NCBI GenBank assembly: GCA_964036295.1
Contig: OZ038465.1
Coordinates: forward strand, 10,485,667-10,549,666
DNA: 64,000 nucleotides
From: Plumapathes pennacea
Taxonomy: Eukaryota; Cnidaria; Anthozoa; Antipatharia; Myriopathidae
Reading direction: 5' to 3'
Below, in pieces: positions 9,970 to 64,000 of this stretch. The position numbers were made by a program, and so were the translations under genes. The notes beneath the pieces are model-generated. The model was given only the letters and a program-made list of their open reading frames with translations, had not been told where the DNA came from and ran no database searches. The stretch's first letter is position 1. Each line of letters opens with the position of its first letter.

Positions 9970-10075
9970 GTAACACTGTTCTGTATGGGCACGTGACACT
10001 GTTATGTGTAGCACGTGACACTGTTCTGTATTGGCACGAGACGCTGTTCTGTACGGGCACGTGACACTGTAGTTC
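9970..10075. repeat. Short tandem repeat (GGCACGTGACACTGTTCTGT units)
   Basis: Four to five imperfect units of about 25 bp built on GCACGTGACACTGT, so CACGTG E-box palindromes recur at about 9989, 10012 and 10060. It lies at or just beyond the 3' end of TOP3A. Confidence 0.7.
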
Positions 10076-10159
10076 GGTGAAGAGTTTCATAAATTCCTCT
10101 CTGCCCAACACTATCCTTACCCACCCTTTCCCTCAGTTCCTCAGATAAGCACAACTTAC

Positions 10160-11300
10160 CCTCTTGCCTGCACGACGTGCACTTTCTTTTCGTCCCTCTC
10201 CTGGGAGGCCCTGGCCCACCACGCCCTCTTGCAGGTCCTCCCCGGCCCCTACCCCTTCGTGTCTGGTCTCTGCTGCTAAAACTCCCAAACGAGGCACCAG
10301 CGTCGTCACTCCACTCGAAGAAGCCGCAACCCTGACCCATGGGCTTAGCGCAGCAGTAGAACTGCCGGCCTTTATTCGGGCCTTCTTTTGACACGGTGCG
10401 CCTGTGGACCGGGACGAGGATTGCACAACTCAGAAGTTTAGTTAGTATTGTACTTACGCGTTGTTGCGTGGTGTTCATGATTCGGGGATGATAACGAAGA
10501 CATTGACTACTAATAATGGTTATTACAACAAGTACGATGATAATGTTGATGCCGTGGATGTTATTGATGGTGGTGATTATTGATAGTGGTGATGATGATT
10601 TGGTTGATAATATTGATGGTGATGATGATTTGGATGATATTATTGGTGGTGGTGATAATGATTTGGATGATATTATTGGTGGTGGTGATAATGATTTGGA
10701 TGGTAATATTGATGGTTGTGATAATGATTTGGATGATAATATTGATGGTGATAATGATTTGGATGGTAATATTGATGGTTGTGATAATGATTTGGTTGAT
10801 AATATTGATGGTGATGATGATTTGGATGATAATATTGATGGTGGCGATGATGATTTGGATGATATCATTGGTGGTGGTGATAATGATTTGGATGATAATA
10901 TTGATGGTTGTGATAATGATTTGGATGATAATATTGATGGTTGTGATAATGATTTGGATGATGATTATTGATGGTGAAGATGATGTGAATGATAATATTG
11001 ACGGTGGTGATAATATTGATAATGATGATAATGATTATGATGACAAATACGACGATAGCGACAGCAATTTACCTGACTGAGGGGTTTCCACACTGGCAAG
11101 CTGGAGCTTCATCTTCAGAGCGTCTGAAACAAGACAAAGAAGCTGATCAGACGTGCACAAAATCAGATATTCAGATAACATGTACACCAAATTTGTATCA
11201 GTATTTCTAATGTGTCACAAAATATAGAATCTGTTCTCCCTTCACCCACCAAACAAAACAACACCCCAAAAAACTAACTACTGACAACGACAAAAAAAAA

Positions 11301-41453: not shown

Positions 41454-41583
41454 AGAATATGAACATTCCGCAATCCGCGAGAAAATACATTTCTCGTGCG
41501 CTTGCGTTTGAGCTTGCTTCACAAAGTTTACCTTGTGCCGGTCGCTTGCGTTTGCGCTTGTTTTATTTGTGGGAACCAGCCTT

Positions 41584-42243
41584 ATGGCTTCATTTCCACC
41601 TGTGATCACTTTGAATGTTGGGGGATATGTCTACACGACGTCGCTCTCAACTCTAACTCAGTTCCCGGAGTCAATGCTAGGCGCTATATTTAGCGGACGG
41701 TTTGTAGTTCAAAAAGACGGCAACGGCAACTATTTTATCGACCGGGATGGCCCCTTGTTCCAGCATGTCCTGGCCTTTCTGCGAAACGGAGTTCTGGAGC
41801 TACCAAAGAACTTTGAGAAGTTGAATCTACTTCTCAAAGAAGCGGAGTATTACCAAATATTACCGCTCATACAGGCTATCAAAGAGAGAGCACAACAGGA
41901 CCTGGCGTTTACCGAGGTCCTAACTGTGTACGGTCGGCGACATGGAAAAAAGTCGTTTTTGAAAAGTCTGTCTGGAAGTATCCATTCGCTGAAGGAAATG
42001 TTCCATAGCGCAAGCACATTCGCCGACCCCTTTGAAGTTACGGCGTACGACAACCAGGCCGGCGAACGATACACGCAACTAACAGGCAAACTCACCGTAA
42101 AAGAATACCATAAAGCGCCGACTGTGGACTTTGTTCTTTCGATTGCCCAGGCGCATGGTTTTGAAGTTTCAACAGAGCCAAGTGTGAGCTTTACAGACGT
42201 GGAGGACGTCGGCAGTTGTTACTGGGTTTTACGTCGACCCTAG
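41584..42243 (+). CDS. KCTD family BTB/POZ protein, single exon
   Basis: 219 residues. An N-terminal T1-type BTB domain (about residues 6-105) has the hallmark motifs ITLNVGGYVYTTSLSTL, SMLGAIFSG, GNYFIDRDGPLFQHVLAFLR and KEAEYYQI. A C-terminal domain follows, ending CYWVLRRP. KCTD proteins are cytosolic oligomers, many acting as substrate adaptors of Cullin-3 ubiquitin ligases; the motifs are closest to the KCTD6/11/21 branch from memory. The start at 41584 (MASFPPVITLNV) fits the family; an in-frame ATG at 41533 would add a 17-residue hydrophobic stretch and is less likely. The CRE-bearing element ends 130 bp upstream. Confidence 0.92.
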   Translation: MASFPPVITLNVGGYVYTTSLSTLTQFPESMLGAIFSGRFVVQKDGNGNYFIDRDGPLFQHVLAFLRNGVLELPKNFEKLNLLLKEAEYYQILPLIQAIKERAQQDLAFTEVLTVYGRRHGKKSFLKSLSGSIHSLKEMFHSASTFADPFEVTAYDNQAGERYTQLTGKLTVKEYHKAPTVDFVLSIAQAHGFEVSTEPSVSFTDVEDVGSCYWVLRRP

Positions 42244-50929: not shown

Positions 50930-51085
50930 TAGATGTTTAACACTTTCATTGCTGATTCCCATTTTCTGGGAATTCTACTCATTGCTGATTCCATTGTAGC
51001 CGAAGTCCAGTTTAGTCAACTTGCAATGACTGTGTTGCAGGGCCTGTCTTGGAAGTTTAACACCTTCATCGCTGATTTTATTGTA
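50930..51085 (-). pseudogene. Orphaned fragment of NLR leucine-rich repeats
   Basis: About two degenerate 84-bp units matching the repeat in the NLR gene at 60460 (GTCAACTTGCAATGACTGTG, AGTTTAACACCTTCATCGCT). They break off at ATTGT 51085, where the retroelement begins; the rest of the broken unit resumes at 55848. Confidence 0.8.
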
Positions 51086-51474
51086 ACGTGGTGTTATAGT
51101 ATAAATCTAGCTAATCTTCCCGTAGTTTGGAAACGAATAAATTAAGTGAATTAGAGTTCTGTTGTTGACACTCGGAAGAGCCCAGGTACCACTGCTAAGT
51201 AAATAGTTACTAAGAGCCTTTAGAATTAGAATTCATTGACTAATTAAATAGCCATTACTTGGTAGAAATAGATTAATCCTGTTGAACCAATATCCATTAG
51301 GTTATTTACGATAGTTAATGCTGAAGGTTCTGCCTGGTCAAATACCTATCTGGGAACCATTATATCCAATTCTACGGAAGAGCAGATGTGCAACCACAGC
51401 TGCGTCCTTGACCCCAGGTAAACCTTTCAGTGTGAACTATCTTATATCAATAACACAACCAGCCAAGTGTTGAG

Positions 51475-52410
51475 ATGTCAGAGCTTCAAAAGGTCAATCA
51501 GGTCACATTGTATAATGTCCAAAAAACTATTACTCTACACCTGCTCCGATGTGCAGAACAACGCTTACAAAGAACTACAGAACAGGCTCAATCAGTTTCT
51601 CGCGAAACGGAACCATTGATTGATTTGACATCAACAGAACTAATCCCAACAAACGAACCCATTTCCCAATCAACCTCACAAGAAACAGAAACACTAGTTG
51701 AGTTAATGACTCTATCTGACGAACGTAATAATACAGAACCAAACACTATGGTAGAGGGAGGTGAACCCAAACCACTGTCAGCAGAAGACGTATTTCGACT
51801 AATGACAGAACAAAACAGAGAAATGCGAGAGCACTTATTAGATCAGGCGAAAATGTTTGCAAACGCAATAGATAAATTTGAACACCCTCCAAAAGATAAG
51901 TTAAAATATAACGGCATCAAACTCCCGAAGTTTAGTGGCGAACTGGACGAGGACGTGAATGAGTTTATTACAAATTACGATCGCGCAGCAAAATTTCACA
52001 AATGGGATAATGATAGAAAGGCAGAAGTCTTACCCCTACACCTGCTCGGAAACGCAAATGTCTGGTTTAATACAACTCCAGATCTTTCTGAAAAATCCTA
52101 TGAAGAGATGGTTGACGCAATGAGACAACAATTTCACTCTACCGCGGACAAAGGGCTTTTAAGACAGAAACTGAACGAACGTAAGCAGTTATTGTCAGAA
52201 ACAGTTACCGCATATGCTGCAGATATTAGGCGCACTAGTAGGCGAATAGATCTGCCACGCACAGAAGCAGTGAACTATTTTATTCAAGGCTTGAAACCCA
52301 CACTAAAGGCATATGTAATGTTACAACAACCAAATACCATCGAAGAGGCGGAGACCCACGCCAAATTGAAAGAGTCAGCGCCAGATCCCACAGTAGATAA
52401 AATGGACTAA
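51475..52410 (+). CDS. Gag-like capsid protein of retroelement
   Basis: 311-residue frame. A Glu/Thr-rich head is followed from about residue 145 by the retrotransposon gag core: IKLPKFSGELDEDVNEFI, LPLHLLGNANVWF, MVDAMRQQFHS and YFIQGLKP. It builds the particle that packages element RNA. It ends at a TAA; beyond that the gag tail continues after the solo LTR. Confidence 0.85.
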   Translation: MSELQKVNQVTLYNVQKTITLHLLRCAEQRLQRTTEQAQSVSRETEPLIDLTSTELIPTNEPISQSTSQETETLVELMTLSDERNNTEPNTMVEGGEPKPLSAEDVFRLMTEQNREMREHLLDQAKMFANAIDKFEHPPKDKLKYNGIKLPKFSGELDEDVNEFITNYDRAAKFHKWDNDRKAEVLPLHLLGNANVWFNTTPDLSEKSYEEMVDAMRQQFHSTADKGLLRQKLNERKQLLSETVTAYAADIRRTSRRIDLPRTEAVNYFIQGLKPTLKAYVMLQQPNTIEEAETHAKLKESAPDPTVDKMD

Positions 52411-52412
52411 GT

Positions 52413-53326
52413 TGATACGAGGGGGAAACTACTCGCTGTGGCTGCTCGGAGAGGTACCAGAGGATCAGGAACGGAGGCCTTCTTCTTTTCCCAACACCAA
52501 TTTATTAACTTCAACTAGAGTTGCAAGTTGCCAACTCTAGAACTAACTGTAAACTCCAATGACAAGGGTGTGCTTCGGCTTAAGTAGTGATGCTTACGTA
52601 CATGACACTTTTGGCCGTCAATCACTACTACGAACCAATGATAGAGTAGCTTACGTCAGAACTTGACTACGAAGCAGCAGATGCTCAATAACATACGCAC
52701 TAAGGAAAAACCTTAACTTTAGCTTTTTAAACTGGTTACGCGTAAACGGAATAAGCTAGATTCAAGAACAGTGGTAAAGTAAATTACGGGCTACTATCCA
52801 GTGTAAAAATTATAAAGTCTTAAGCAGTAAAAACCTAGTAAAAGTACCTAACAACGAATATTAGAAAATCAACATTACGTAATGACGCTGTTCCAGGTAG
52901 GCTCCGCCTCCAAGGAGAGCCAGAACTTGGTCGTAAACAACTTAATGGGATTTTCACACTTTTCCAGGTTAAGTACAAGCTAAACAATAAGGTTAATTCC
53001 AGAAATGCAAATATACGCTAAACTCAGCCAGACTAATTCAAATAACGAACACTTACTAAGCTCTGGCCATTTGTGATTGGCCAAAAGGTAAAAGGTCATT
53101 AGTACTAAAAGTAACAGAACTATCTTTACTTAGTAGCAGGTGTATATTACAATGAATGAAAACTCTACTTAACGTTTGGCTAAAGTGTAAATGGAAGTAA
53201 ATAGTATTAGAATTACGCTGTGCTTTTAATCTAAATAATCGAGTGAGTCGCTAATAGATACCAAGTATTACCCAAAATATAACCCATAAATGTTATAGGA
53301 AAATAGTGGAAATCTCTTCCGTAACA
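52413..53326. mobile_element. Solo LTR inside the gag region
   Basis: 914 bp beginning TGATACGAGG and ending CCGTAACA, the TG...CA ends of an LTR, bounded by AAGT on both sides (52409-52412 and 53327-53330). The gag frame resumes directly on the far side. No internal coding region, so a recombined solo LTR or a similar non-coding insertion. Confidence 0.7.
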
Positions 53327-53330
53327 AAGT

Positions 53331-53724
53331 GATAAACCTGTTAACCAAGAAATCAGAACCCGCAACTATCGCTGCGTACAATCCAATTCAATCAAACCCT
53401 CAACGAGACGACTCGGAAAGCCAAACGCTAAAACGGGAAGACATACTTCAAATCATTCGCCAGGAACTACAACGAACAAACAATAAGCCCGACTTTTCCA
53501 AACCAAAATAGGACTGCACCAAACGCAGGACAGAATCGCCGGACATTTGACGGGAAGCCAATTTGTAACTACTGCCAGAAAGTAGGGTACATTTCGACTG
53601 TATGCCGCCAACATTTAGGACAGAATGGAGATCCGAGAATTCCAAATTCAAATTATCAGAGGAATTCAAATCCTCAAAACCCCGCCTTTCGCCGCGAAAG
53701 TCGACCGTATAATTTAAACTAGCG
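53331..53724 (+). pseudogene. Remainder of gag with decayed zinc knuckle
   Basis: Resumes as INLLTKKSEPATIAAYNP, reaches a stop at 53511, and after a frameshift shows CNYCQKVGYISTVC. This is a CCHC nucleocapsid knuckle with Tyr in the His position. Confidence 0.7.
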
Positions 53725-53817
53725 GGGGTTTCGTATGAGTCGGGGCTATACGAACCCTATAATAGTAATCAAACTGATGAACGACAAACAAACACGAGTA
53801 ACGCACAAACCTTACAC

Positions 53818-54588
53818 ATGGAAACAATTAAAGACTTGGCGGTTAAAAACTCAAAACCCACACGCAGATTGGATACTTTAGAAGCGCATGAAACTACAAT
53901 CCCGAGTAATTTCATGAAAGAAACAGTAGCCAATGCTAGAAGTACTACCTTCAAAGGATACCCCGTTAGATCACTTCAAATGCAAGAAAGAATGAGAAAA
54001 CGAAGGGAACTAGCAAAGAAAGCTGAAGAGATTAAACAGCTAGTATTGGACACTTCTGACGCAACAAACACAGAAATTATCCAAGAACGAAATGTACGTT
54101 TTGAAATGCCAAAGCTGCAAACAGAACCAAGCGATTCTCCTAGTGTTAACACTATCGATATACTACGTAGAAAAGATTGCGTTCCCTTGCTAAAGATTGA
54201 ATCAGACATTGAACCTGAAGTTCACACAATGAGTACCAAAGCTGTTGAGACAACTTCACAAAAGCCTTTAGAATTTGAGTCAATAACGTCCCACGAAGAA
54301 AAGATTGACAACAAAACAAACTTAATTGTGTTTGAAGAACCACGCATCGCAGGCACCGAATTTAAAGTGGAAACCATAGAAACGAAAACCGCAATCGAAG
54401 ACGAAAAACCTGAACTGAATAAGACTGTGGACAGTTATAAAGAAACGATACGTTCAACCGCGCTGAAATCATTCGAGACAATAGTGTCAGGTATAAAATG
54501 TTCAGGATACATGCTTTTATTGGTTTTATTAACAGTGATTCCACTATTATGGAAAGGGGCTATTTGGACTAAGAAAACATGGTCGAGC
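53818..54588 (+). CDS. Retroelement frame with C-terminal membrane segment, unknown
   Basis: A Glu/Lys/Thr-rich frame of about 257 residues (stop at 54609, inside the MITE). Near its end is one strongly hydrophobic stretch, YMLLLVLLTVIPLLW. It contains no recognised domain. The position between gag and protease suggests part of the polyprotein; the hydrophobic helix is unusual there. The last residues come from the MITE. Confidence 0.5.
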
Positions 54589-54591
54589 TTA

Positions 54592-54822
54592 AGCCTGGTT
54601 TCCATATAATCGTCTCTGACGTAAGGATCGTCTCTGTCGCAGAATTTTTTGTCAAGCAATCGGGAAGATTATATGGAAACACTCTTGCGATTGTTTCAAA
54701 CGATCCTTATGTCAGAAGCGACTCGATCGTCCCGATAGAACCATGTTCTATCCTTGCGTCGGAGAGAACCGGAAATGCAGAGACGATCCTTACGTCAGAG
54801 ACGATTATATGGAAACCAGGCT
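54592..54822. mobile_element. Harbinger-type MITE
   Basis: 231 bp with ends AGCCTGGTTTCCATATAATC and its inverse GATTATATGGAAACCAGGCT, flanked by TTA on both sides (54589-54591, 54823-54825). Inner repeats of GACGTAAGGATCGTCTC appear in both arms. A 3-bp TTA duplication is typical of PIF/Harbinger. Confidence 0.85.
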
Positions 54823-54825
54823 TTA

Positions 54826-55229
54826 GAAGTTACAAAGAAGCCAACACCCATCAAATCGGTCAATACTGCCAGTGTACCAAAAGTGATGCTTATATTGTCA
54901 AGAATCAAACACAACATAGTGATGATGAACAAAGACAAGCAGTAAATGCTAAGCAGGGTTCCGACTCAGATGAAAAGGCAAACAGTGAAGATTTATTTAC
55001 AGATTTAACTCAAAATGCTGTTCAGTTCTCAACGCCAGTTAACAATCTCTCGATTGATGGTTCAATTTCTGGAAGAAAATTTTCTTTTCTCATCGACACC
55101 GGCGCTAACGTGAGTACTATCAAAGCGGACGCATGGCGCCAATTGCCACCACCAAAACCGCCTGAACATACTATAGATAACGAAATTCTAGCTTATATAA
55201 ATGACCATTCTATCACCATTCTGGCGTAA
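54826..55229 (+). pseudogene. Retropepsin-like aspartic protease of retroelement
   Basis: The active-site motif FLIDTGANVSTI lies at about 55088-55123, with the flanking FSTPVNNLSIDGSISGRKF typical of retrotransposon proteases. The frame is broken upstream by the MITE and a frameshift and stops at 55229. Confidence 0.75.
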
Positions 55230-55241
55230 ACTCACAGTGAT

Positions 55242-55646
55242 TTGAAAAGACCAGTAATTTTCCAAACCCAGAAGGAAAACGTGGGCGCAATTCAACAGAA
55301 CTTGTTCTTCCGAGGCGTAACACTTGCATTTGTGTTCTTAATGATCTGGAAGTCAGTAATGGATCATAAACGAGTTATTCAGGAATTAAGTTGCTGTAAG
55401 AAATCCCTAAAGTCCAGAAACGCATTCTCAGAACTAAGCAAAGAACTGCAGTGGCTTCTGCGCAAACATGAACGAGAGAAATTGTACACTACTTTCACAT
55501 GGTCTTTAAGTACACAAAAAGTAAGAAATAATGAGAGTGTGCGGAAACAATTGTTCAACAATTGTAACACCCACCCCTGTGACTTCTCAATTTGCCCATG
55601 TACCGAACCTCGTTTGTTAAGTGAATACGACAGAACTTGTTGCTAA
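55242..55646 (+). CDS. Unidentified retroelement frame
   Basis: 134 residues with a hydrophobic stretch (FRGVTLAFVFLMIW) and a cysteine-rich end (CNTHPCDFSICPC). No recognised domain. Membrane segment plus cysteines could suggest a surface-type protein, but this is speculation. Confidence 0.35.
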   Translation: MKRPVIFQTQKENVGAIQQNLFFRGVTLAFVFLMIWKSVMDHKRVIQELSCCKKSLKSRNAFSELSKELQWLLRKHEREKLYTTFTWSLSTQKVRNNESVRKQLFNNCNTHPCDFSICPCTEPRLLSEYDRTCC

Positions 55647-55847
55647 CATACCAACGGAAGTACATATTTTTTGTCGACTAACCACTATAATCTTTGGCGA
55701 AGGACCAATTGAGACATGAGCTTCCAAACCCTCACAATTGTTTTAATTAAAATTTGCACATTTGTTTCGTGAGACTCACAACAAGGTTTGCCGACACTAG
55801 TTTCAAACCAAGTTGACAGTTAGTAATTCAGTTAATTGTATGACTTG

Positions 55848-56340
55848 GAATGACTGTGTTGCAGAGCCTCCTTCAGATGTTTAACACCTTCAACGCGATT
55901 CTATTTTGGCTTCGGTTCAGTTCAGTCAAATTGCAATGACTGTGTTGCAGAGCCTTCTTCAGATGTTTAACACTTCATCGCCGATTCCGTTGTCGCTTAG
56001 GGTCAGTTTAGTCACTACTAGCAATGACTGTGTTGCAGGGCCTCCTTTAGATGTTTAACACTTCATCGCCGATTTCACTTTAGCTTAGGTCAAGTTCAGT
56101 CAATTTGCAATCGCTGTGTTTCAGGGCCGCCCTCAGATGTTTAAAACCTTCAACGACGATTCCATTTCTGCTTAGGTTCAGTTTAGTCAACTTGCAATCA
56201 CTGTGTTTCAGAGCTCCTTCAGATGTTCAACACCGGCTTTAATGCCCATTCCATTGTTGCTTAGGTTCAGTTCAGTCAACTTGCAATCACTAGCTGTGTT
56301 GCAGAGCCTCCTTCAGATGTTTAACACCTTCAACCTACCT
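55848..56340 (-). pseudogene. Degenerate LRR array
   Basis: About six 84-bp units of the NLR repeat (AGCCTCCTTCAGATGTTTAA, GTCAACTTGCAATCACTGTG), with indels that close the frame. It directly continues the fragment at 50930 across the retroelement. Confidence 0.85.
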
Positions 56341-57048
56341 ACCCTTCTAATCTCGATCGTTTAATTATACTTCAGAAGCGCATAGTGCGAATTGCCAACA
56401 AGGAAGGTTATCTAGCTCACACAGACCCAATTTTTTAACAATTAAAAATCCTTAAACTCGAACAAATATATACATTTCAAGTCGGTCAATTTATGTTTTT
56501 GTTTAAGAATCAGTTACTACCCCAGTGGTTTGATGATTATTTTTCACTTTGTAATGAAACTCATAATTACAGCACAAGAAATGCCTGCTTGTTCCACCTT
56601 CCTTTTTGCAGAACTAACATCAGACAATTCTCTATTTATTACCAAGGCCCAAAAATATTTAACTCTTTAGCCATCGAAATTCGTAATTGTACAACTATCT
56701 CAACCTTTAAAGCTAAGCTGAAGAATAGCATTCTCTGTTGAACAACTATCAATAAGCCATTTTCTCTACTACAATGTAACTATTTTTGCTTTAACTGTAT
56801 TTCTGTGTATACCTGCACTTATATATTTAATTTATGAACTGCACTCCTGCACTTCTGCACCGCACTATATAATATATCCCAGTAATTTTAGAGGAAGCTC
56901 AAATGATATAAGCCTCCGGCTTCTTTTTTGAGCTCCCTCACCACACAATAATACAAAGAAAAAAATTATATCAATACGTATATGTATATATTAATTTAGT
57001 AATATAACTGTGTGTGGAAACAAAATAAATAAATAAATAAATAAAAAA
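56341..57048 (+). mobile_element. LINE 3' end inserted in LRR array
   Basis: Plus-strand coding remnant RLIILQKRIVRIANKEGYLA, after a stop QLKILKLEQIYTFQ, then LFKNQLLPQWFDDYF and IFNSLAIEIRN. This is the C-terminal region of a CR1/jockey-type LINE. It ends in a repeat tail (AAAT/AATA)n at 57021-57048, after which the LRR sequence resumes. Confidence 0.8.
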
Positions 57049-57802
57049 TAGTGTTGCAGAGCCTTCTTCAGATGTTTAACACCTTCAACGCCGATTCCAT
57101 TGTTACTAAGGTTCAGTTCAGTCAACTTGCAATCACTGTGTTTCAGAGCCTCCTTCAGATGTTCAGCACCTTTAACGCCGATTCCATTTCTGCTTAGGTT
57201 CAGTTCAGTCAACTTGCAATCACTGTGTTTCAGAGCCTCCTTCAGATGTTCAGCACCTTTAATGCGGATTCCATTTATGCTTAGGTTCAGTTCAGTCAAG
57301 TTGCAATCACTGTGTTGTAGGGCCTCCTTCAGATGTTTAGCACCTTTAATGCGGATTCCATTTATGCTTAGGTTCAGTTCAGTCAACTTGCAATCACTGT
57401 GTTTCAGAGCCTCCTTCAGATGTTTAAAACCTTTAATGCGGATTCCATTGTCGGTTAGGCTCAGTTCAGTCAACTTGCAATCACTGTGTTTCAGAGCCTC
57501 CTTCAGATGTTTAGCACCTTTAATGCGGATTCCATTTATGCTTAGGTTCAGTTCAGTCAAGTTGCAATCACTGTGTTATAGGGCCTCCTTCAGATGTTTA
57601 GCACCTTTAATGCGGATTCCATTTATGCTTAGGTTCAGTTCAGTCAAGTTGCAATCACTGTGTTGTAGGGCCTCCTTCAGATGTTTAACACCTTCAACGC
57701 CGATTCCATTGTCAGTTAGGTTCAGTTCAGTCAACTTGCAATCACTGTGTTTCAGAGCCTCCTTCAGATGTTTAACACCTTCAACGCCGATTCCATTGTC
57801 GG
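57049..57802 (-). pseudogene. LRR array with premature stop
   Basis: Nine near-identical 28-residue repeats (LTELNLSINGIRIKGAKHLK type) in one frame. One repeat has CTATAA in place of the CTACAA codon near 57570, giving a stop that splits the array into 57576-57802 and 57049-57560. The right end is cut by gypsy sequence at 57803. The subtype (IRIKGAKHLKEAL) differs from the main gene's IGVEGVKHLKEAL, so it may derive from a paralogue. Confidence 0.85.
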
Positions 57803-60145
57803 AATCATTTACAGGAGTTCCAACATTCTCATTCCACCAAAGCTGCGCTTGGACACTCTGAGCAAGCTGCACAATTTGCACCAAGGAATAGAGAAAACCA
57901 AGCGTCTAGCAAGGCAGTGCATATTTTGGCCGGGCATACAACTATGACTGGACAGCAAGACCTCTCCCACCACTCGCAGAGGGGGATACAATCCGAATGA
58001 AGAAGAACCCTGAAGCAACGTGGGAACCTGCAATCATTATCGCCAAACATAACACGCCCAGAAGTTATGTAGTCAAAACCAACGATGGCGCGGAGTACCG
58101 GCGAAACCGGAAACACCTGATGAAAACCAAAGAAGAATATCTGGCGCCACCCTGGGACCTGGAGGAGCCTATTGGTGATCCAGTCCTGCAGGAGCCTATT
58201 GGTGATCCAGTCCTGGAGGAGCCTATTGTTGATCCAGTCCGGACGCCTACAGCTCGACGGGAACCGCCGGAGGGCGTGGTTACAGCGTCACCCAACAGGC
58301 CTAACGACAACGGTCCACGTGTCAGCCTTTATGGAAGAGTGATCAAACCAAATCCGAAATACAAGGATTGAACATTGCTTAGTATTCATCTGTTACTGTT
58401 TTCCGGTGCACTGAACTATCATGGACATGATTAGTTAAGAACGGAACTATTAGCCTTTATTTTGTTTTCCTGTTGCCTTTATTTTGATTTCCTGTTGATC
58501 TTGATTATTTCTTATTTTGTATTTATTTAGGAGAGAAGATGTAATATACGATACGATACGATACGATAATCTTTATTTAAACACGATAAGAGTTTAAGCA
58601 TCAGCTTGTGGGGTCGTGTATAAAAACAAATAGTATTAAGCTAATCAGTGAACCTATATTTAAATTATTAATAACTAGTGAAAACTAACATTCCTATAAT
58701 AAATATATAAAAATACTAATAATAATAACAGCAATAACAATAGCGTGCTGGTATAATGTATAATTAATAATATCTAAAATGTTCATTAAAATCTGGGATG
58801 GACTGGGCAGATAAGGCGTTAAAATCTATATTACAAAGTGTCTTTGTTCCTTTGGCCCTTTTCACATACGTTGTAGCAGATAGTGTTTCATCGCAGGATA
58901 AGTGCGCTGAAAGTGCGTTCCAAACTATAGGGCCCCTATGGGCGATAGAGTTTTTCATAAAATAGGTATTGAACCAGGGCACCTTGAGTTTGTTGCTATT
59001 TCTGAAATTATAATTATTATTGGGTCTTTATGTGGGACATGCTGTTCGTTGTTAAATCATGATATAACTTGTACATTAATTTCACTAAACTAGTTTTATA
59101 TATAAAAAATAGGTTGTCCCATTTTGCCGTTCTCAGAACGTCCACTGTAGGCATATCCCATGGGAGATTGAAAATAAGTTTGGCTGCTCTGCATTGTAAG
59201 GATTCTAAAGAGTTGAAATTGTCCTTACAGGTGAAGCCACCCCAGACGGGTATCGCGTACGTTACTGAGGGTAGAATTACTTTAAAATATAAATCTAAAA
59301 GCGTTTGTCTGGGCAGAAATCTGCTTCTTTTGATCATATTTAATTTACTGGCGAAGCTCTTTTTTACTTCGCCAATGTGACGGGACCAAGTAAATTTGTC
59401 ATCAATTGTGACTGCGAGCAATCTGGAGTGTTTGACCCATCGTATTTCATGTGCCCCTAGTGTGAGTTTGTTGAGTGGGCCGATGAAGGAGCCTCGGTGG
59501 AGTAGCATCGCCTCACATTTCACGGGGTGCGGGATCATGGAGTTCGAATTACACCAAGTATACAGCTCGTTGAGCGAATTGTTGAGTAGTTCAGTAACTT
59601 CGTCCACGGAGTCGCCAATACAATAGAGTGTTGTATCGTCCGCATACATAAAGACTGTCCCAGAGGTGACCGCCAGCGGCAAGTCGTTTGTATACAATGT
59701 GAACAAGGACGGGCCAAGGACGAAGCCCTGTGGTACACCGCAGGTCACTTCAGCGTAATCTGACCTTTGTCCGTTTATGGTGGTGTACTGCTGTCTTTGC
59801 CCTAGGTAGTCTTTCAGCCACGATAGTAGACATCCGGCGATTCCAAAACAGTGTTCAAGTTTGCTTATAAGTCTGAGATGTGATACACTATCGAACGCTT
59901 TCTGGAAATCGATGAAGACTACGCCGACAACTTTTTTGGAATCAAGGGCTTTTCTCCAGATCTCCATATTTAATATATGTTAATCACATTGTAATCATTC
60001 ATATTTATTCATGTATATATTATGTTGGACAATCGTGTGAGAGACAGAACTTAAGAGAGACGGACCAGAGAGGGTCGGAGAATAAACGCAGTAGTTATCT
60101 CTAACGAGTTGCTATAGTTCTGTTACGGATGCATGATACACGACA
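57803..60145 (+). mobile_element. Gypsy-type retrotransposon 3' end with LTR
   Basis: Plus strand. The integrase zinc-binding region at 57830-57947 (LRLDTLSKLHNLHQGIEKTK then RQCIFWPGI) is followed at once by the integrase C-terminal region 57997-58371 (APRSYVV-like PRSYVVKTNDGAEYRRN, then a Pro-rich tail with the EEPIGDPVL repeat). The catalytic core between them is missing. The 3' LTR starts TGTAATATA at 58540 and ends ACACGACA at 60145, interrupted by the LINE 58549-59970. The 5' half is lost. Confidence 0.85.
58549..59970 (-). mobile_element. 5'-truncated LINE with reverse transcriptase
   Basis: Minus strand. RT frame 59967-59017 shows FIDFQKAFDSVSH (motif A), GVPQGFVLGP (B) and MYADDTTLY (C); after a break the C-terminal part is at 58982-58764. 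The 3' end is a (GATAC)n tail at 58549-58565. A 7-bp duplication TAATATA (58542-58548 and 59971-59977) marks insertion into the gypsy LTR. Confidence 0.9.
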
Positions 60146-60427
60146 CAGTCAACTTGCAATCACTGTGTTGCAGAGCCTCCTTCAGGGCCCGGTTTTTCGA
60201 AAGCCGATTAAGCTAATCCAGGATTAATGAAATTCTTTCTCTCGGCCTCTCTGCCAATAAACTGCAGAGTTTTGTTCGAAGATGGATTAAAAAGCTTGTT
60301 CCAGCTTAAAAACGCATAAAGGAAGTTGTTGTGGGCGAAACCTTCACATTTGCCGGCATATAAATGACATGAAAGTTTAGACCTAATCCAGGATTAGCCT
60401 AATCGTGCTTTCAAAAACCGCACACAG
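60146..60427. mobile_element. LRR remnant (60146-60184) plus MITE (60185-60427)
   Basis: Forty bases of LRR sequence are followed by a MITE with ends GGGCCCGGTTTTTCGAAAGC and GCTTTCAAAAACCGCACAC and inner ATTAAGCTAATCCAGGATTA / TAATCCAGGATTAGCCTAAT. CTTC flanks both sides. It interrupts an LRR unit just downstream of the NLR stop. Confidence 0.8.
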
Positions 60428-60459
60428 ACTTCCAACGCCGATTCCATTTCTGCTTAGGG

Positions 60460-63400
60460 TCAGTAAGTCAACTTGCAATCACTGTGTTGCAGAGCCTCCT
60501 TCAGATGTTCAACACCTTCAACGCCTATTTCATTGCAGCTTAGGTTCAGTTTAGTCAACTTGCAATTACTGTGTAGCAGGGCCTCCTTCAGATGTTTAAC
60601 ACCTTCAACGCCGATTCCAATGTTACTTAGGTTCAGTTTAGTCAACTTGCAATGACTGTGTAGCAGAGCCTCCTTCAGATGTTTAAAACCTTCAATGCCG
60701 ATTCCATTTCCGGTTAGGTTCAGTTCAGTCAACTTGCAATCACTGTGTTTCAGAGCCTCCTTCAGATGTTCAGCACCTTTAACGCCGATTCCATTGTAGC
60801 TTAGGTCCAGTTCAGTCAACTTGCAATATTTACTGTGCAGCACGGCCTCCTTCAGATGTTTAACACCTTCATCGCCGATTCCATTGTAGCTTAGGTTCAG
60901 TTCAGTCAACTTGCAATATTTACTGTGTAGCAGGGCCTCCTTCAGATGTTTAACACCTTCAACGCCGATTCTATTGTAGCTTAGGTCCAGTTCAGTCAAC
61001 TTGCAATTACTGTGCAGCAGGGCCTCCTTCAGATGTTTAACACCTTCAACGCCGAATCCATTGTAGGTTAGGTTCAGTTCAGTCAACTTGCAATTACTGT
61101 GTAGCAGAGCCTCCTTCAGATGTTTAACACCTTCAACGCCGATTCCATTTCCGGTTAGGTCCAGTTTAGTCAACTTGTAATCACTGTATAGCAGAGCCTC
61201 CTTCAAATGTTTAACACCTTCATCGCCTATTTTATTGTGGCTTAGGTTCAGTTCAGTCAACTTGCAATTACTGTGTAGCAGGGCCTCCTTCAGATGTTTA
61301 ACATCTTCAACGCCGATTCCATTGTTACTTAGGTTCAGTTTAGTCAACTTGCAATGACTGTGTGGTAGGGTCTCCTTCAGATGTTGAACACCTTCATCGC
61401 CGATTGTACTATGGCTTAGGTCTAGTTTAGTGAGGTGCCGAGCGCCTCTGTCATCAATGCTATTGTTTCCTAAGAATAGAGCTGTTGTCTCAGACTTACT
61501 CGTCAGTAGCTTTGAAAACCCAGCAGGACCAATGTTGTTGGCACTCAGGTCCAGGGAACCCGTGAAACTCGACGCAGCGTGGTTCAGTACGAAAGAAATG
61601 GCGGTGCAGTCGGCGTCAGTGACTCCTGATCCACATAGATTGCATGGACGGTCGATATTTCCTGTAGCATCTGTCACAAAGTCCTTATCGTGGTATTCGA
61701 AGAAACACTTTGTGAGCAAAAGATGTTTTTGATCTTCTCGTTCAATGGCTTGAAACATCGCGTCTCGCAATGTAGTTAGTGGGCATTTCGTCCCAACATT
61801 AGCGGACGGCGATAACAGACCTGCGATGAACTGGAGAACCACATTCCATTTCGGATCTGTCACAGCAGATGAAAGAAATAACTCAAAGTCTCCGAGCGTG
61901 AATTGCTTGACAATGTGTCGAGCGGCAAGGAACTCTTGAATGGTTAAATGGAGGAAAATGTACTGTGGACTACATTCCATCTCCTGAGTGACAATTCCAG
62001 GCATTTCATGGATGATGCCACACGACGTCAGGACATCAACGGGGATACCTTTCATTTCATCAAATACCAACTGCCTTTTGTCAATTCCGTGGTACGCCAC
62101 ATCTGATAGTTTATCAATAGTAGCATCATCGAGTGTTGGTTCTCCTCCTGACTTGAAATGCTCTTTGGTAAACAAGTGCACTATGCGGCTGTACAGTGAC
62201 GTTAACGTAGTAGGAAATGTCTCCTCAGTCATGTCCCCTGATTTCTGAAGGCAATAACAGACAAGGAAACAGTTTATGGGAATGTAGCATAGAGCCAAAA
62301 GATCAGGCCTGCTTCTGATGTACTCATTGACTTCCGCGCTCTTCTCAGAGTTGTCTGCGCCGAAATAATTCTCAACATATTTCTCGATCTTTTCCTCGTC
62401 GAATCCCAATACTTCCACAGTTCTACTGTTGTTGATGTCTCGGTCGTGCTGGATGCTTTCTGAAACTTGGTTGGCACGCGATGTCGTGATTACCGTTGCT
62501 TTTGGGAGGAGCTTACCGGTACAAAGTTTGTAGTACAAAGCCTGAACCGGCATGACACTATCGTCGGCGCGATGCATGTATCTCTCAGCTGTTTCCTTGA
62601 AATTTTGTAGATTAAGAGATTCGTCGAAGCCGTCAAAGATCAGCAAAACCTTGTCTGAGGATTCTCCGATTCTCGTGAACGTGGCGTTATCCAGTTCAAC
62701 CGAGTGTGGACTAGAATTGAGAAGGCCACGAAGGCTGATGTCCTGTGTAATCTTGTTGAGCTGTCTAAAGTTCAGCAGGAAGGCATACTCGTACTTATCC
62801 TTATACAGTTGATTGCTAGCCCATCCTCTGATTATGTTTTCACAAAACATTGTCTTTCCAATGCCTGCTCGACCAATCACAAAAATGTTCTTGGGGGTTC
62901 TTTCTTTTGTTAGCGGCTTCACAAGATCTTCGACGTTATCCAGTTTTGCTATGACCTCTTCTGGTTTAGCGTACTGCCACAAATTTCCCTCTCGTTCATA
63001 CAGCTGGTGTTGCTTTAACTTGTGGGAGACTCTTCTGCGATAAAGAATGAGTTTCGTGAAGATCTGATCAAACTCGAAGTCGGACTTATCATGGACAGTG
63101 GAGAAAAGTTTCTTCACCCTTTGGGTTGAATTAAGGATTTTTTTTCGCATGCGATCTTGATAGGACGGTTTAACAAAACGGCAACATTCAAAGAGAAATT
63201 CCAAAACCGATAAGACGAGGAACACAAAATTCAAAACTGATATCACCGTTATGTTCGCAGCCAGTCGGTCTCTGTACTTGTCTCGACATGCAACAGTCGT
63301 GATATTCAAACTGCTGATGGTGTTGGGGCTGCAAATGAACACCTCAGGAATACTGAAAATGTCGTCTGTTGGATTTGTTACCCAGCCCACGATGACAAAT

Positions 63401-63813
63401 GACGCAAAAGAGATGGTTCTGAAAGCAATCTGTGCAATGTAAATCCTCCGAATTTTTGGGCGCCTGAAGAGCGGAATATCAGGCGGTGGGCAGTCTCTAT
63501 TGTAATAGGCATAGGAAATGTAGAATATCCACAAACAAGCCACAAAGCCTATCGCAATGGACCTATGTTTAAAAACATACGGATAGTGCTGGTCAGAGTA
63601 CTGTTGAAAACACAGCGTGTTAATGTAGGCATCTCTTCCCTTTAACTCCGGTTGTCCCTCATTCTCGCACTTGAATTGTTCCGTAAACTGATCACCAATC
63701 TTTCCCGAGATGAAGGCGGACGTAATGAAGAATAAAACGAGCAGGAAGGTGCCCCAATGATTCTGCGTGCCAGTGAATTCTTTGAACGCGCCCAAAATGG
63801 GGGAAGGATCCAT
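60460..63813 (-). CDS. NLR: four-TM channel-like domain + NACHT + LRRs, 1117 aa
   Basis: Single uninterrupted frame. Residues 1-20 form a short tail. Four hydrophobic segments lie at about 20-38, 86-104, 123-146 and 186-210. The loop between TM1 and TM2 has Cys49 and Cys68, and the loop between TM3 and TM4 has Cys161 and Cys176 with NxT sites; the TM2-TM3 loop is short and basic. This is the layout of innexin/pannexin-type large-pore channels. NACHT follows: Walker A GRAGIGKT (about 314-321), Walker B LLIFDGFDE (about 390-398) and the TTSRA sensor. About eleven 28-29-residue LRRs (LTELNLSYNGIGVEGVKHLK type) fill the last 340 residues. NACHT-LRR proteins are innate sensors that oligomerise on ligand binding. 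The frame ends abruptly in a repeat (CKLTY, stop) through a small deletion. More LRRs lie beyond, so the natural C-terminus was longer. The repeat number may vary by unequal crossing-over. Confidence 0.92.
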   Translation of the reverse strand: MDPSPILGAFKEFTGTQNHWGTFLLVLFFITSAFISGKIGDQFTEQFKCENEGQPELKGRDAYINTLCFQQYSDQHYPYVFKHRSIAIGFVACLWIFYISYAYYNRDCPPPDIPLFRRPKIRRIYIAQIAFRTISFASFVIVGWVTNPTDDIFSIPEVFICSPNTISSLNITTVACRDKYRDRLAANITVISVLNFVFLVLSVLEFLFECCRFVKPSYQDRMRKKILNSTQRVKKLFSTVHDKSDFEFDQIFTKLILYRRRVSHKLKQHQLYEREGNLWQYAKPEEVIAKLDNVEDLVKPLTKERTPKNIFVIGRAGIGKTMFCENIIRGWASNQLYKDKYEYAFLLNFRQLNKITQDISLRGLLNSSPHSVELDNATFTRIGESSDKVLLIFDGFDESLNLQNFKETAERYMHRADDSVMPVQALYYKLCTGKLLPKATVITTSRANQVSESIQHDRDINNSRTVEVLGFDEEKIEKYVENYFGADNSEKSAEVNEYIRSRPDLLALCYIPINCFLVCYCLQKSGDMTEETFPTTLTSLYSRIVHLFTKEHFKSGGEPTLDDATIDKLSDVAYHGIDKRQLVFDEMKGIPVDVLTSCGIIHEMPGIVTQEMECSPQYIFLHLTIQEFLAARHIVKQFTLGDFELFLSSAVTDPKWNVVLQFIAGLLSPSANVGTKCPLTTLRDAMFQAIEREDQKHLLLTKCFFEYHDKDFVTDATGNIDRPCNLCGSGVTDADCTAISFVLNHAASSFTGSLDLSANNIGPAGFSKLLTSKSETTALFLGNNSIDDRGARHLTKLDLSHSTIGDEGVQHLKETLPHSHCKLTKLNLSNNGIGVEDVKHLKEALLHSNCKLTELNLSHNKIGDEGVKHLKEALLYSDYKLTKLDLTGNGIGVEGVKHLKEALLHSNCKLTELNLTYNGFGVEGVKHLKEALLHSNCKLTELDLSYNRIGVEGVKHLKEALLHSKYCKLTELNLSYNGIGDEGVKHLKEAVLHSKYCKLTELDLSYNGIGVKGAEHLKEALKHSDCKLTELNLTGNGIGIEGFKHLKEALLHSHCKLTKLNLSNIGIGVEGVKHLKEALLHSNCKLTKLNLSCNEIGVEGVEHLKEALQHSDCKLTY

Positions 63814-64000
63814 GTCTTGATTGTACTAACCAGTATGAAGGAAACAATTTGGCGGCTGAGAACGTCTGTCTGGTGTGGGAAGAACAAGTGGAGTGCAACT
63901 AAGTGAGCTCGCTTATCGTCAATTGATTTTTCATGCTACTGATATCCCAAAATGCTAGAGAGGAACATAGAACACAACATAAAGATAAAGAATGGATTGT
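63814..64000. other. Upstream region of the NLR gene
   Basis: 187 bp upstream of the NLR start to the window edge. Other-frame ATGs occur but no upstream in-frame extension. No promoter element recognised. Confidence 0.4.

Follow-up and report, generated by a model that had tools for sequence, protein, structure and literature searches.

Among the nucleotide-binding, leucine-rich repeat receptors (NLRs) of anthozoans, a type with transmembrane (TM) segments was described in 2016 from actiniarian transcriptomes, where 8 of 35 NLRs contained such segments, which numbered three to five and were N-terminal; the 15 receptors with a transmembrane domain (TMD-NLRs) all fell into one NACHT clade (PMC5094078). 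The species covered were A. pallida, A. tenebrosa, A. buddemeieri and C. polypus, with N. vectensis and A. digitifera as cited there. A TMD-bearing NLR was also found to be down-regulated in Exaiptasia infected with Vibrio (PMC7654579). PMC5094078, in its available text, does not assign the TM segments to a family; the word connexin is absent from its main text, from that of PMC7654579, and from the main-text passages available from a cnidarian pattern-receptor survey (PMC8260672). Here we analyzed a window of 64,000 nucleotides from the antipatharian Plumapathes pennacea (contig OZ038465.1, positions 10,485,667 to 10,549,666; positions below count from the first base of the window), in which a minus-strand gene at 60460–63813 encodes an NLR whose N-terminal membrane domain is best read as a divergent connexin type. 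The gene corresponds to the description of the anthozoan TMD-NLRs, a NACHT-LRR (leucine-rich repeat) protein with three to five N-terminal TM segments, and probably belongs to the same family, the two being likened by description only. A first, sequence-only reading of this locus had been aware of no described NLR with this architecture; TM-bearing anthozoan NLRs, however, have been in print since 2016 (PMC5094078). Because these were found in transcriptomes, the architecture has transcript support in relatives, which does not extend to the window gene itself.

Several other systems resemble the gene in part. LRRC8 volume-regulated anion channels likewise carry a four-TM large-pore module followed by LRRs, with no NACHT domain, and in plant resistosomes (ZAR1 and other coiled-coil NLRs, CNLs) the oligomerized NLR makes its own membrane pore, formed by a coiled-coil that inserts on activation. 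Innexins and pannexins have two cysteines in each outer loop, and the same number is found in GJE1/Cx23. With the domain described here innexins and pannexins also share four TM helices and two outer loops (PMC8769644). Connexin 23/GJE1 is a highly diverged connexin (PMC7455182, PMC10008584) and the named exception to the CX4CX5C pattern of loop 2 (PMC7066803); it resembles the present family in being diverged and off the usual loop 2 pattern, and differs in being a stand-alone vertebrate protein. As far as the available text of two surveys goes, connexin-like proteins have not been reported in non-chordates, except for one unconfirmed sea urchin transcript (PMC8769644), or are found in chordates only (PMC6391747). 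In the open-licence literature, no article joining connexins with NACHT, NLRs or cnidarians was seen among the matches listed, as judged by title, start of abstract or passage. The architecture itself is already known. What appears new is the connexin identity of the anthozoan NLR membrane part, and with it both a non-chordate connexin relative and a candidate for an immune pore contained in the receptor itself; automatic database annotation may already label such proteins Connexin and NACHT.

The gene forms a single open reading frame of 1117 amino acids plus stop in the standard code, with an in-frame TAG at 63826–63828, 15 bases 5′ of the ATG. Residues 1–215 (63169–63813) make up the connexin-like membrane domain as judged from profile matches and hydropathy, the latter showing four peaks at residues 21–39 (TM1, 63697–63753), 85–103 (TM2, 63505–63561), 124–142 (TM3, 63388–63444) and 190–208 (TM4, 63190–63246). 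The N-tail of 20 residues (63754–63813) occupies the place of the connexin N-terminal helix, and the inner loop is likewise 20 residues long. Predicted outer loop 1 extends from C49 to C68 (63610–63669, 18 residues between the cysteines) and loop 2 from C161 to C176 (63286–63333, 14 residues between), the latter containing the N-glycosylation sequon NIT at residues 170–172. TM3 carries the conserved Y125 and R132 columns and TM4 the invariant E205. A linker (residues 216–309, 62887–63168) leads to the NACHT domain (residues 310–486, 62356–62886; Pfam E=2.4e-29) with the Walker A motif GRAGIGKT at residues 314–321 and the Walker B motif VLLIFDGFDE at residues 389–398. It is followed by a helical region resembling NLRC4_HD2 (residues 622–714, 61672–61950; E=2.7e-5, 25.1 bits and thus below the cut-off of 33.1) and by the main part of the LRR array (residues 791–1117, 60463–61443), the protein matching LRR_6 in 11 stretches. 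We did not find a death-fold N-terminal effector among the 18 Pfam families matched at E≤10, residues 1–215 being taken up by the membrane domain. The four hydrophobic helices, the two cysteines per predicted outer loop with their spacings of 18 and 14, the short N-tail and inner loop, and the intact Walker A/B NACHT preceding LRRs, all of which the sequence-only reading had noted, were recovered in this analysis.

We searched the 290 Mb assembly (24 contigs; contigs are labelled C and paralogue loci L), in which the window is part of a 27 Mb contig. With the window membrane domain as query, four paralogues of the same layout were obtained (E 1e-25 to 1e-4), and the most distant paralogue yielded 21 matches, including the window locus and the first four. 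Long, uninterrupted frames with the membrane domain followed by NACHT are present in nine copies including that of the window (994–1371 residues from stop to stop), and an additional 1330-residue frame at C3:3525463 shows a sub-threshold Connexin match together with a NACHT match. An alignment of the membrane domain (A2) was built from 17 distinct copies, leaving out L019, L021, L028 and L030 as interrupted or partial, as well as L001, L026, L013, L024, L031 and L011 as repeats of included loci. Identity to the window copy across this alignment is 16–34%, with L002 a near relative at 34–38%; nevertheless all 17 copies share Y72, Y125, E205 and the last three of the four cysteines. The first cysteine lines up in 16 of them and is found two residues later in L012. 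All nine long copies show four hydrophobic peaks, N-tails of 17–26 residues and a Walker A motif, including the most divergent one, L049 (C2:35942000–35951900), whose NACHT identity to the others is 22–28%. From the nine long frames and the 17 copies retaining four cysteines it follows that the window frame is not a chance frame; the gene belongs to a real, conserved NLR family. Genome-wide, of 100 NACHT matches scored from 183 candidates, 16 lie at most 2 kb downstream of a connexin-type match.

The connexin relationship is carried by profile comparisons. Searching the Protein Data Bank (PDB) with the 17-copy profile gave Cx43 as best match with E=2e-15, aligned over profile positions 13–220 of 239, and every one of the 34 distinct sequences matched at E<10 was a connexin. 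A profile of five copies had the same preference (Cx43 at 2e-7, Cx26 at 6e-6; connexins in 34 of 36 matches at E<10), its two non-connexin matches reaching E 1.1 and 2.1, and its alignment to Cx26 (6uvr_A) starts with profile position 4 on Cx26 position 4. Pfam Connexin (PF00029) was matched by 12 of the 17 copies at E≤1, with a best value of 3.6e-11, whereas the next families, CD20, Tetraspanin and a poxvirus family, were matched by two of 17 copies each (among the best 25 of 30 families). Scanned singly, three of eight copies exceeded the curated Connexin cut-off of 31.3 bits (L020 with 43.7, L022 with 43.0 and L002 with 34.6 bits), L003, L005 and L018 gave E 8e-5 to 4e-6, and L015 gave no match. 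L022 combines a Connexin match of 39.0 bits with a NACHT match of 2.9e-28 in one intact frame. A six-frame, exon-by-exon search of the genome with PF00029 yielded 18 candidates, of which 16 matched at E≤1 and five exceeded the cut-off (one only together with its neighbours); all five are loci known from the paralogue searches. Weak partial matches were seen at C3:27130267, C2:12810645, C11:11560326 and C7:17388217 (E 0.008–0.2), and an ordinary stand-alone connexin was not recognised among the matches listed. Taken by itself, residues 1–235 of the window protein gave no Pfam family above noise and did not match any PDB chain below E=1; its weak matches to Ni_hydr_CYTB (0.036) and Tetraspanin (0.065) were treated as noise. 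An NCBIfam scan of the copies returned nothing useful (best 0.0029, in one copy). In a protein collection that may hold few cnidarian proteins, no match was found for the window domain among 630 candidates for long and 274 for short proteins, nor for the 17-copy alignment among 3170 candidates. The connexin homology of the family is thus well supported by these profile matches, and for the window copy it would be transitive.

Compared with connexins (PF00029; Cx43, Cx26, Cx36), the family has the same four TM helices, the short N-tail and a collinear match, and retains the first and third connexin cysteines of both loops according to the Cx43 alignment, the middle one being lost; in the same profile alignment Cx43 also has the CY motif found at the third loop 1 cysteine of the family. 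It differs by the absent middle cysteines, the fusion to NACHT-LRR, the loop 2 sequons and its hexacorallian host. In Cx36 the disulfides are C55–C242, C62–C236 and C66–C231 (PMC10008584), so that the two middle cysteines pair with each other and their joint loss would remove one bond, leaving two complete bonds. Innexin, pannexin, LRRC8 and CALHM identities were rejected, since none of these families occurs among the 34 PDB matches at E<10 or among the best 25 of 30 Pfam families. Pannexin and LRRC8 chains do occur in the PDB, as seen in fold-search matches, and innexin and CALHM chains are deposited as well; as innexins share the number of helices and the two cysteines per loop, their absence is a useful control. 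The same control bears on convergence, that is, an unrelated four-helix membrane domain resembling connexins by its number of helices and its cysteines alone. Such an origin would agree with the missing match of the window copy by itself, the loss of two hallmark cysteines, and a poor single-sequence structure model (unused as evidence) that does not single out a connexin. We consider it very unlikely, because a four-helix make-up with two cysteines per loop should favour innexins or pannexins, whereas connexins alone were matched, the best nearly end to end at E=2e-15, and five places in the genome pass the curated cut-off (one with its neighbours). The suggestion of the sequence-only reading that the domain is large-pore-channel-like therefore held in that it is homologous to a large-pore family and fused in frame to NACHT-LRR; the family to which it points is the connexins, not innexins, pannexins or LRRC8.

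Loop 2 carries an N-glycosylation sequon in eight of the nine long copies, with 15 sites in total as compared to 5.0 in shuffled sequences (P=0.0045 for the number of copies with a site; 15 sites were reached in 0 of 10,000 shuffles). N-glycosylation stops chordate innexin homologues from forming gap junctions, according to the available text of PMC8769644. By analogy, the sequons would favour an undocked hemichannel over docking to gap junctions. A role in building or regulating true gap junctions, through which an immune signal would spread to neighbouring cells or which would close on infection, would be in line with the homology to gap-junction proteins and with the CY motif of loop 1 shared with Cx43, but in view of these sequons and of the effect attributed to N-glycosylation in the chordate homologues we regard a cell–cell channel as highly unlikely.

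We further analyzed how the two parts of the protein evolved. Among the nine long copies, pairs that are more alike in the connexin part are also more alike in NACHT (correlation of pairwise identities, r=0.84, permutation P=2e-4), which fits joint inheritance as a unit from one old fusion. Ratios of non-synonymous to synonymous substitution (dN/dS) were computed for 16 pairs of membrane parts by the simple Nei–Gojobori method, several dS values being near saturation, and amounted to 0.33–0.66 for pairs of long copies (n=4), 0.28–0.75 for pairs with a broken copy (n=6), 0.57–0.58 for long versus short-frame pairs (n=2) and 0.63–0.96 for pairs of short frames (n=4). These values fit a membrane part under weak to moderate constraint, with decay in a tandem cluster. 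If the connexin-type domain were a membrane anchor or localizer only, the NLR would be otherwise ordinary and signal via other proteins. Fast divergence of the membrane part and the decay of many copies would be compatible with this, and TMD-bearing NLRs were proposed to be membrane-bound (PMC5094078). Yet a single helix without conserved cysteines would suffice for a bare anchor, whereas the nine long copies all keep four helices and the 17 aligned copies four loop cysteines (with a shift in one copy) despite only 16–34% identity to the window copy. As the module is also a member of a channel family, we consider a pure anchor unlikely.

The cluster at C3:3455000–3504500 (L037–L041) is a tandem arrangement of many whole and partial connexin-type domains, in which several open frames comprise only 227–254 residues and end soon after TM4; these could represent either NLRs in decay or short proteins resembling connexins. 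The short frames (L015, L016, L023, L027 and L029) lie among many connexin and NACHT fragments, and L015 retains a NACHT-linker remnant 3′ of its frame. This context, the remnant and the dN/dS of 0.63–0.96 make truncated NLR copies a more likely explanation than stand-alone connexins. Elsewhere, C11:11433098–11728077 contains at least 12 NACHT matches on one strand, about 19–30 kb apart in a fairly regular tandem array, and C3:4492215–4966581 a second run of at least 12 on one strand, several with identical scores.

Based on the homology, the in-frame fusion, the cysteines and the sequons, we propose that this NLR assembles or gates a connexin-type pore of its own, a model to which we assign about an even chance. 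The domain would reside in a cell membrane and have its two ends on the cytosolic side, two inter-loop disulfides would hold the outer loops together, and sugar chains on outer loop 2 would block docking to a neighbouring cell, leaving a hemichannel in a single membrane. A cytosolic ligand bound by the LRRs would switch NACHT to an oligomeric form, and this oligomerization would assemble or open a pore for ions and small molecules such as Ca2+ and ATP. No separate effector would then be needed, and the protein would be the animal counterpart of the pore-forming plant NLR resistosomes, sharing their proposed principle; unlike the resistosome coiled-coil, however, the helices here appear to span the membrane from the outset and are related to connexins. 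Alternatively, signalling could run from the outside inwards, with the connexin-type pore or its loops sensing an extracellular state (Ca2+, damage, contact or a symbiont) and relaying it to the NLR, the membrane part thus serving as input. The conserved outer loops and the sequon-rich loop 2 would suit a sensor, and integrated domains can act as sensors in NLRs, as in plant integrated decoys; given that the LRR array is already a sensor and that known NLRs carry their effector at the N-terminus, we judge this arrangement distinctly unlikely.

A number of observations weigh against the self-contained connexin-type pore. With regard to the homology, the connexin hallmark of three cysteines per outer loop is replaced by two, so that the family has four of the six hallmark cysteines. 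Pfam Connexin is not matched by the window copy on its own or, at E≤1, by four other copies of the 17, and L012 reached only E 0.18 when scanned singly. L022 alone of the five places above the PF00029 cut-off lies in an intact long frame, four being in broken or short frames (254–523 residues) and one passing only with its neighbours. The AlphaFold single-sequence model of residues 1–235 was too poor to be used as evidence (predicted local distance difference test score, pLDDT, 49.8; predicted template modelling score, pTM, 0.29), and the same holds for the Foldseek search made with it, which gave 71 matches at E≤10, none at E≤0.001, and ranked CD20 first, pannexin 1 second and a connexin 22nd. 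With regard to function, five of all 17 copies lack a loop 2 sequon (12 have one), many family copies are broken, and the Walker B pattern was unmatched in one of the nine long copies (L049, whose Walker A is normal). The membrane part evolves faster than NACHT (32% versus 69% identity between the window copy and L007), and one pair of short frames reaches a dN/dS of 0.96. Finally, known NLR oligomers are mostly not hexamers, so that their symmetry may not fit.

Downstream of the gene, the minus strand contains further LRR repeats with one in-frame stop at 57051–57863, probably an outlying part of the same array, degenerate LRR repeats at 55844–56343, probably its continuation, and a third degenerate block of the same type at 50930–51097. 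Repeats of one type in three same-strand blocks (50930–57863) suggest that the array was probably once longer and was then split by insertions. The extent initially given for the gene stands as an uninterrupted frame of 1117 residues, but 60460 is not simply where LRR coding stops. Immediately beyond the stop codon and adjoining a stray LRR fragment, an element of about 230 bp at 60190–60420 has 37-bp inverted ends that are 89% alike in a gapped self-comparison, and looks like a small DNA transposon; the inverted ends are visible in this comparison only, as an inverted-repeat tool reported no pair at 59950–60480. The region downstream of the gene also contains retrotransposon frames of Ty3 type (gag and protease-like) and, separately, a frame for reverse transcriptase, at 51475–55229 (plus strand) and 59017–59967 (minus strand). 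The remainder of the window contains a BTB_2 domain frame at 41533–42243 (plus strand, E=6e-20) and a GRF zinc finger frame at 10002–10868 (minus strand, E=2.7e-15).

In the same assembly, contig C24 is the mitochondrial genome with 17,711 bases and its genes on one strand. As read here, a LAGLIDADG-like frame interrupts cox1, and nad1 and nad3 lie between the two parts of nad5. ARAGORN detected two tRNAs, with anticodons CAT and TCA, the latter specifying tryptophan in the cnidarian mitochondrial code. Such a combination is typical of Hexacorallia and closest to that of sea anemones, so that the contig points to a hexacorallian.

The origin of connexins is an open question, with two surveys reporting them from chordates only in their available text (PMC8769644, PMC6391747). 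A connexin relative in a hexacorallian, if true, would move this origin towards the eumetazoan root or require horizontal transfer. We tentatively raise the possibility, which we hold with considerable reservation, that a connexin-type pore module existed in the cnidarian–bilaterian ancestor and was kept in hexacorallians as an NLR effector in the form of NACHT-gated hemichannels, while the gap-junction connexins of chordates would derive from the same module, perhaps an immune pore. A connexin-NLR, if true, would be an animal immune receptor carrying its own pore, uniting sensing and membrane permeabilization in one gene, and the anthozoan TMD-NLRs, in print since 2016 or before, would gain a concrete, testable function.

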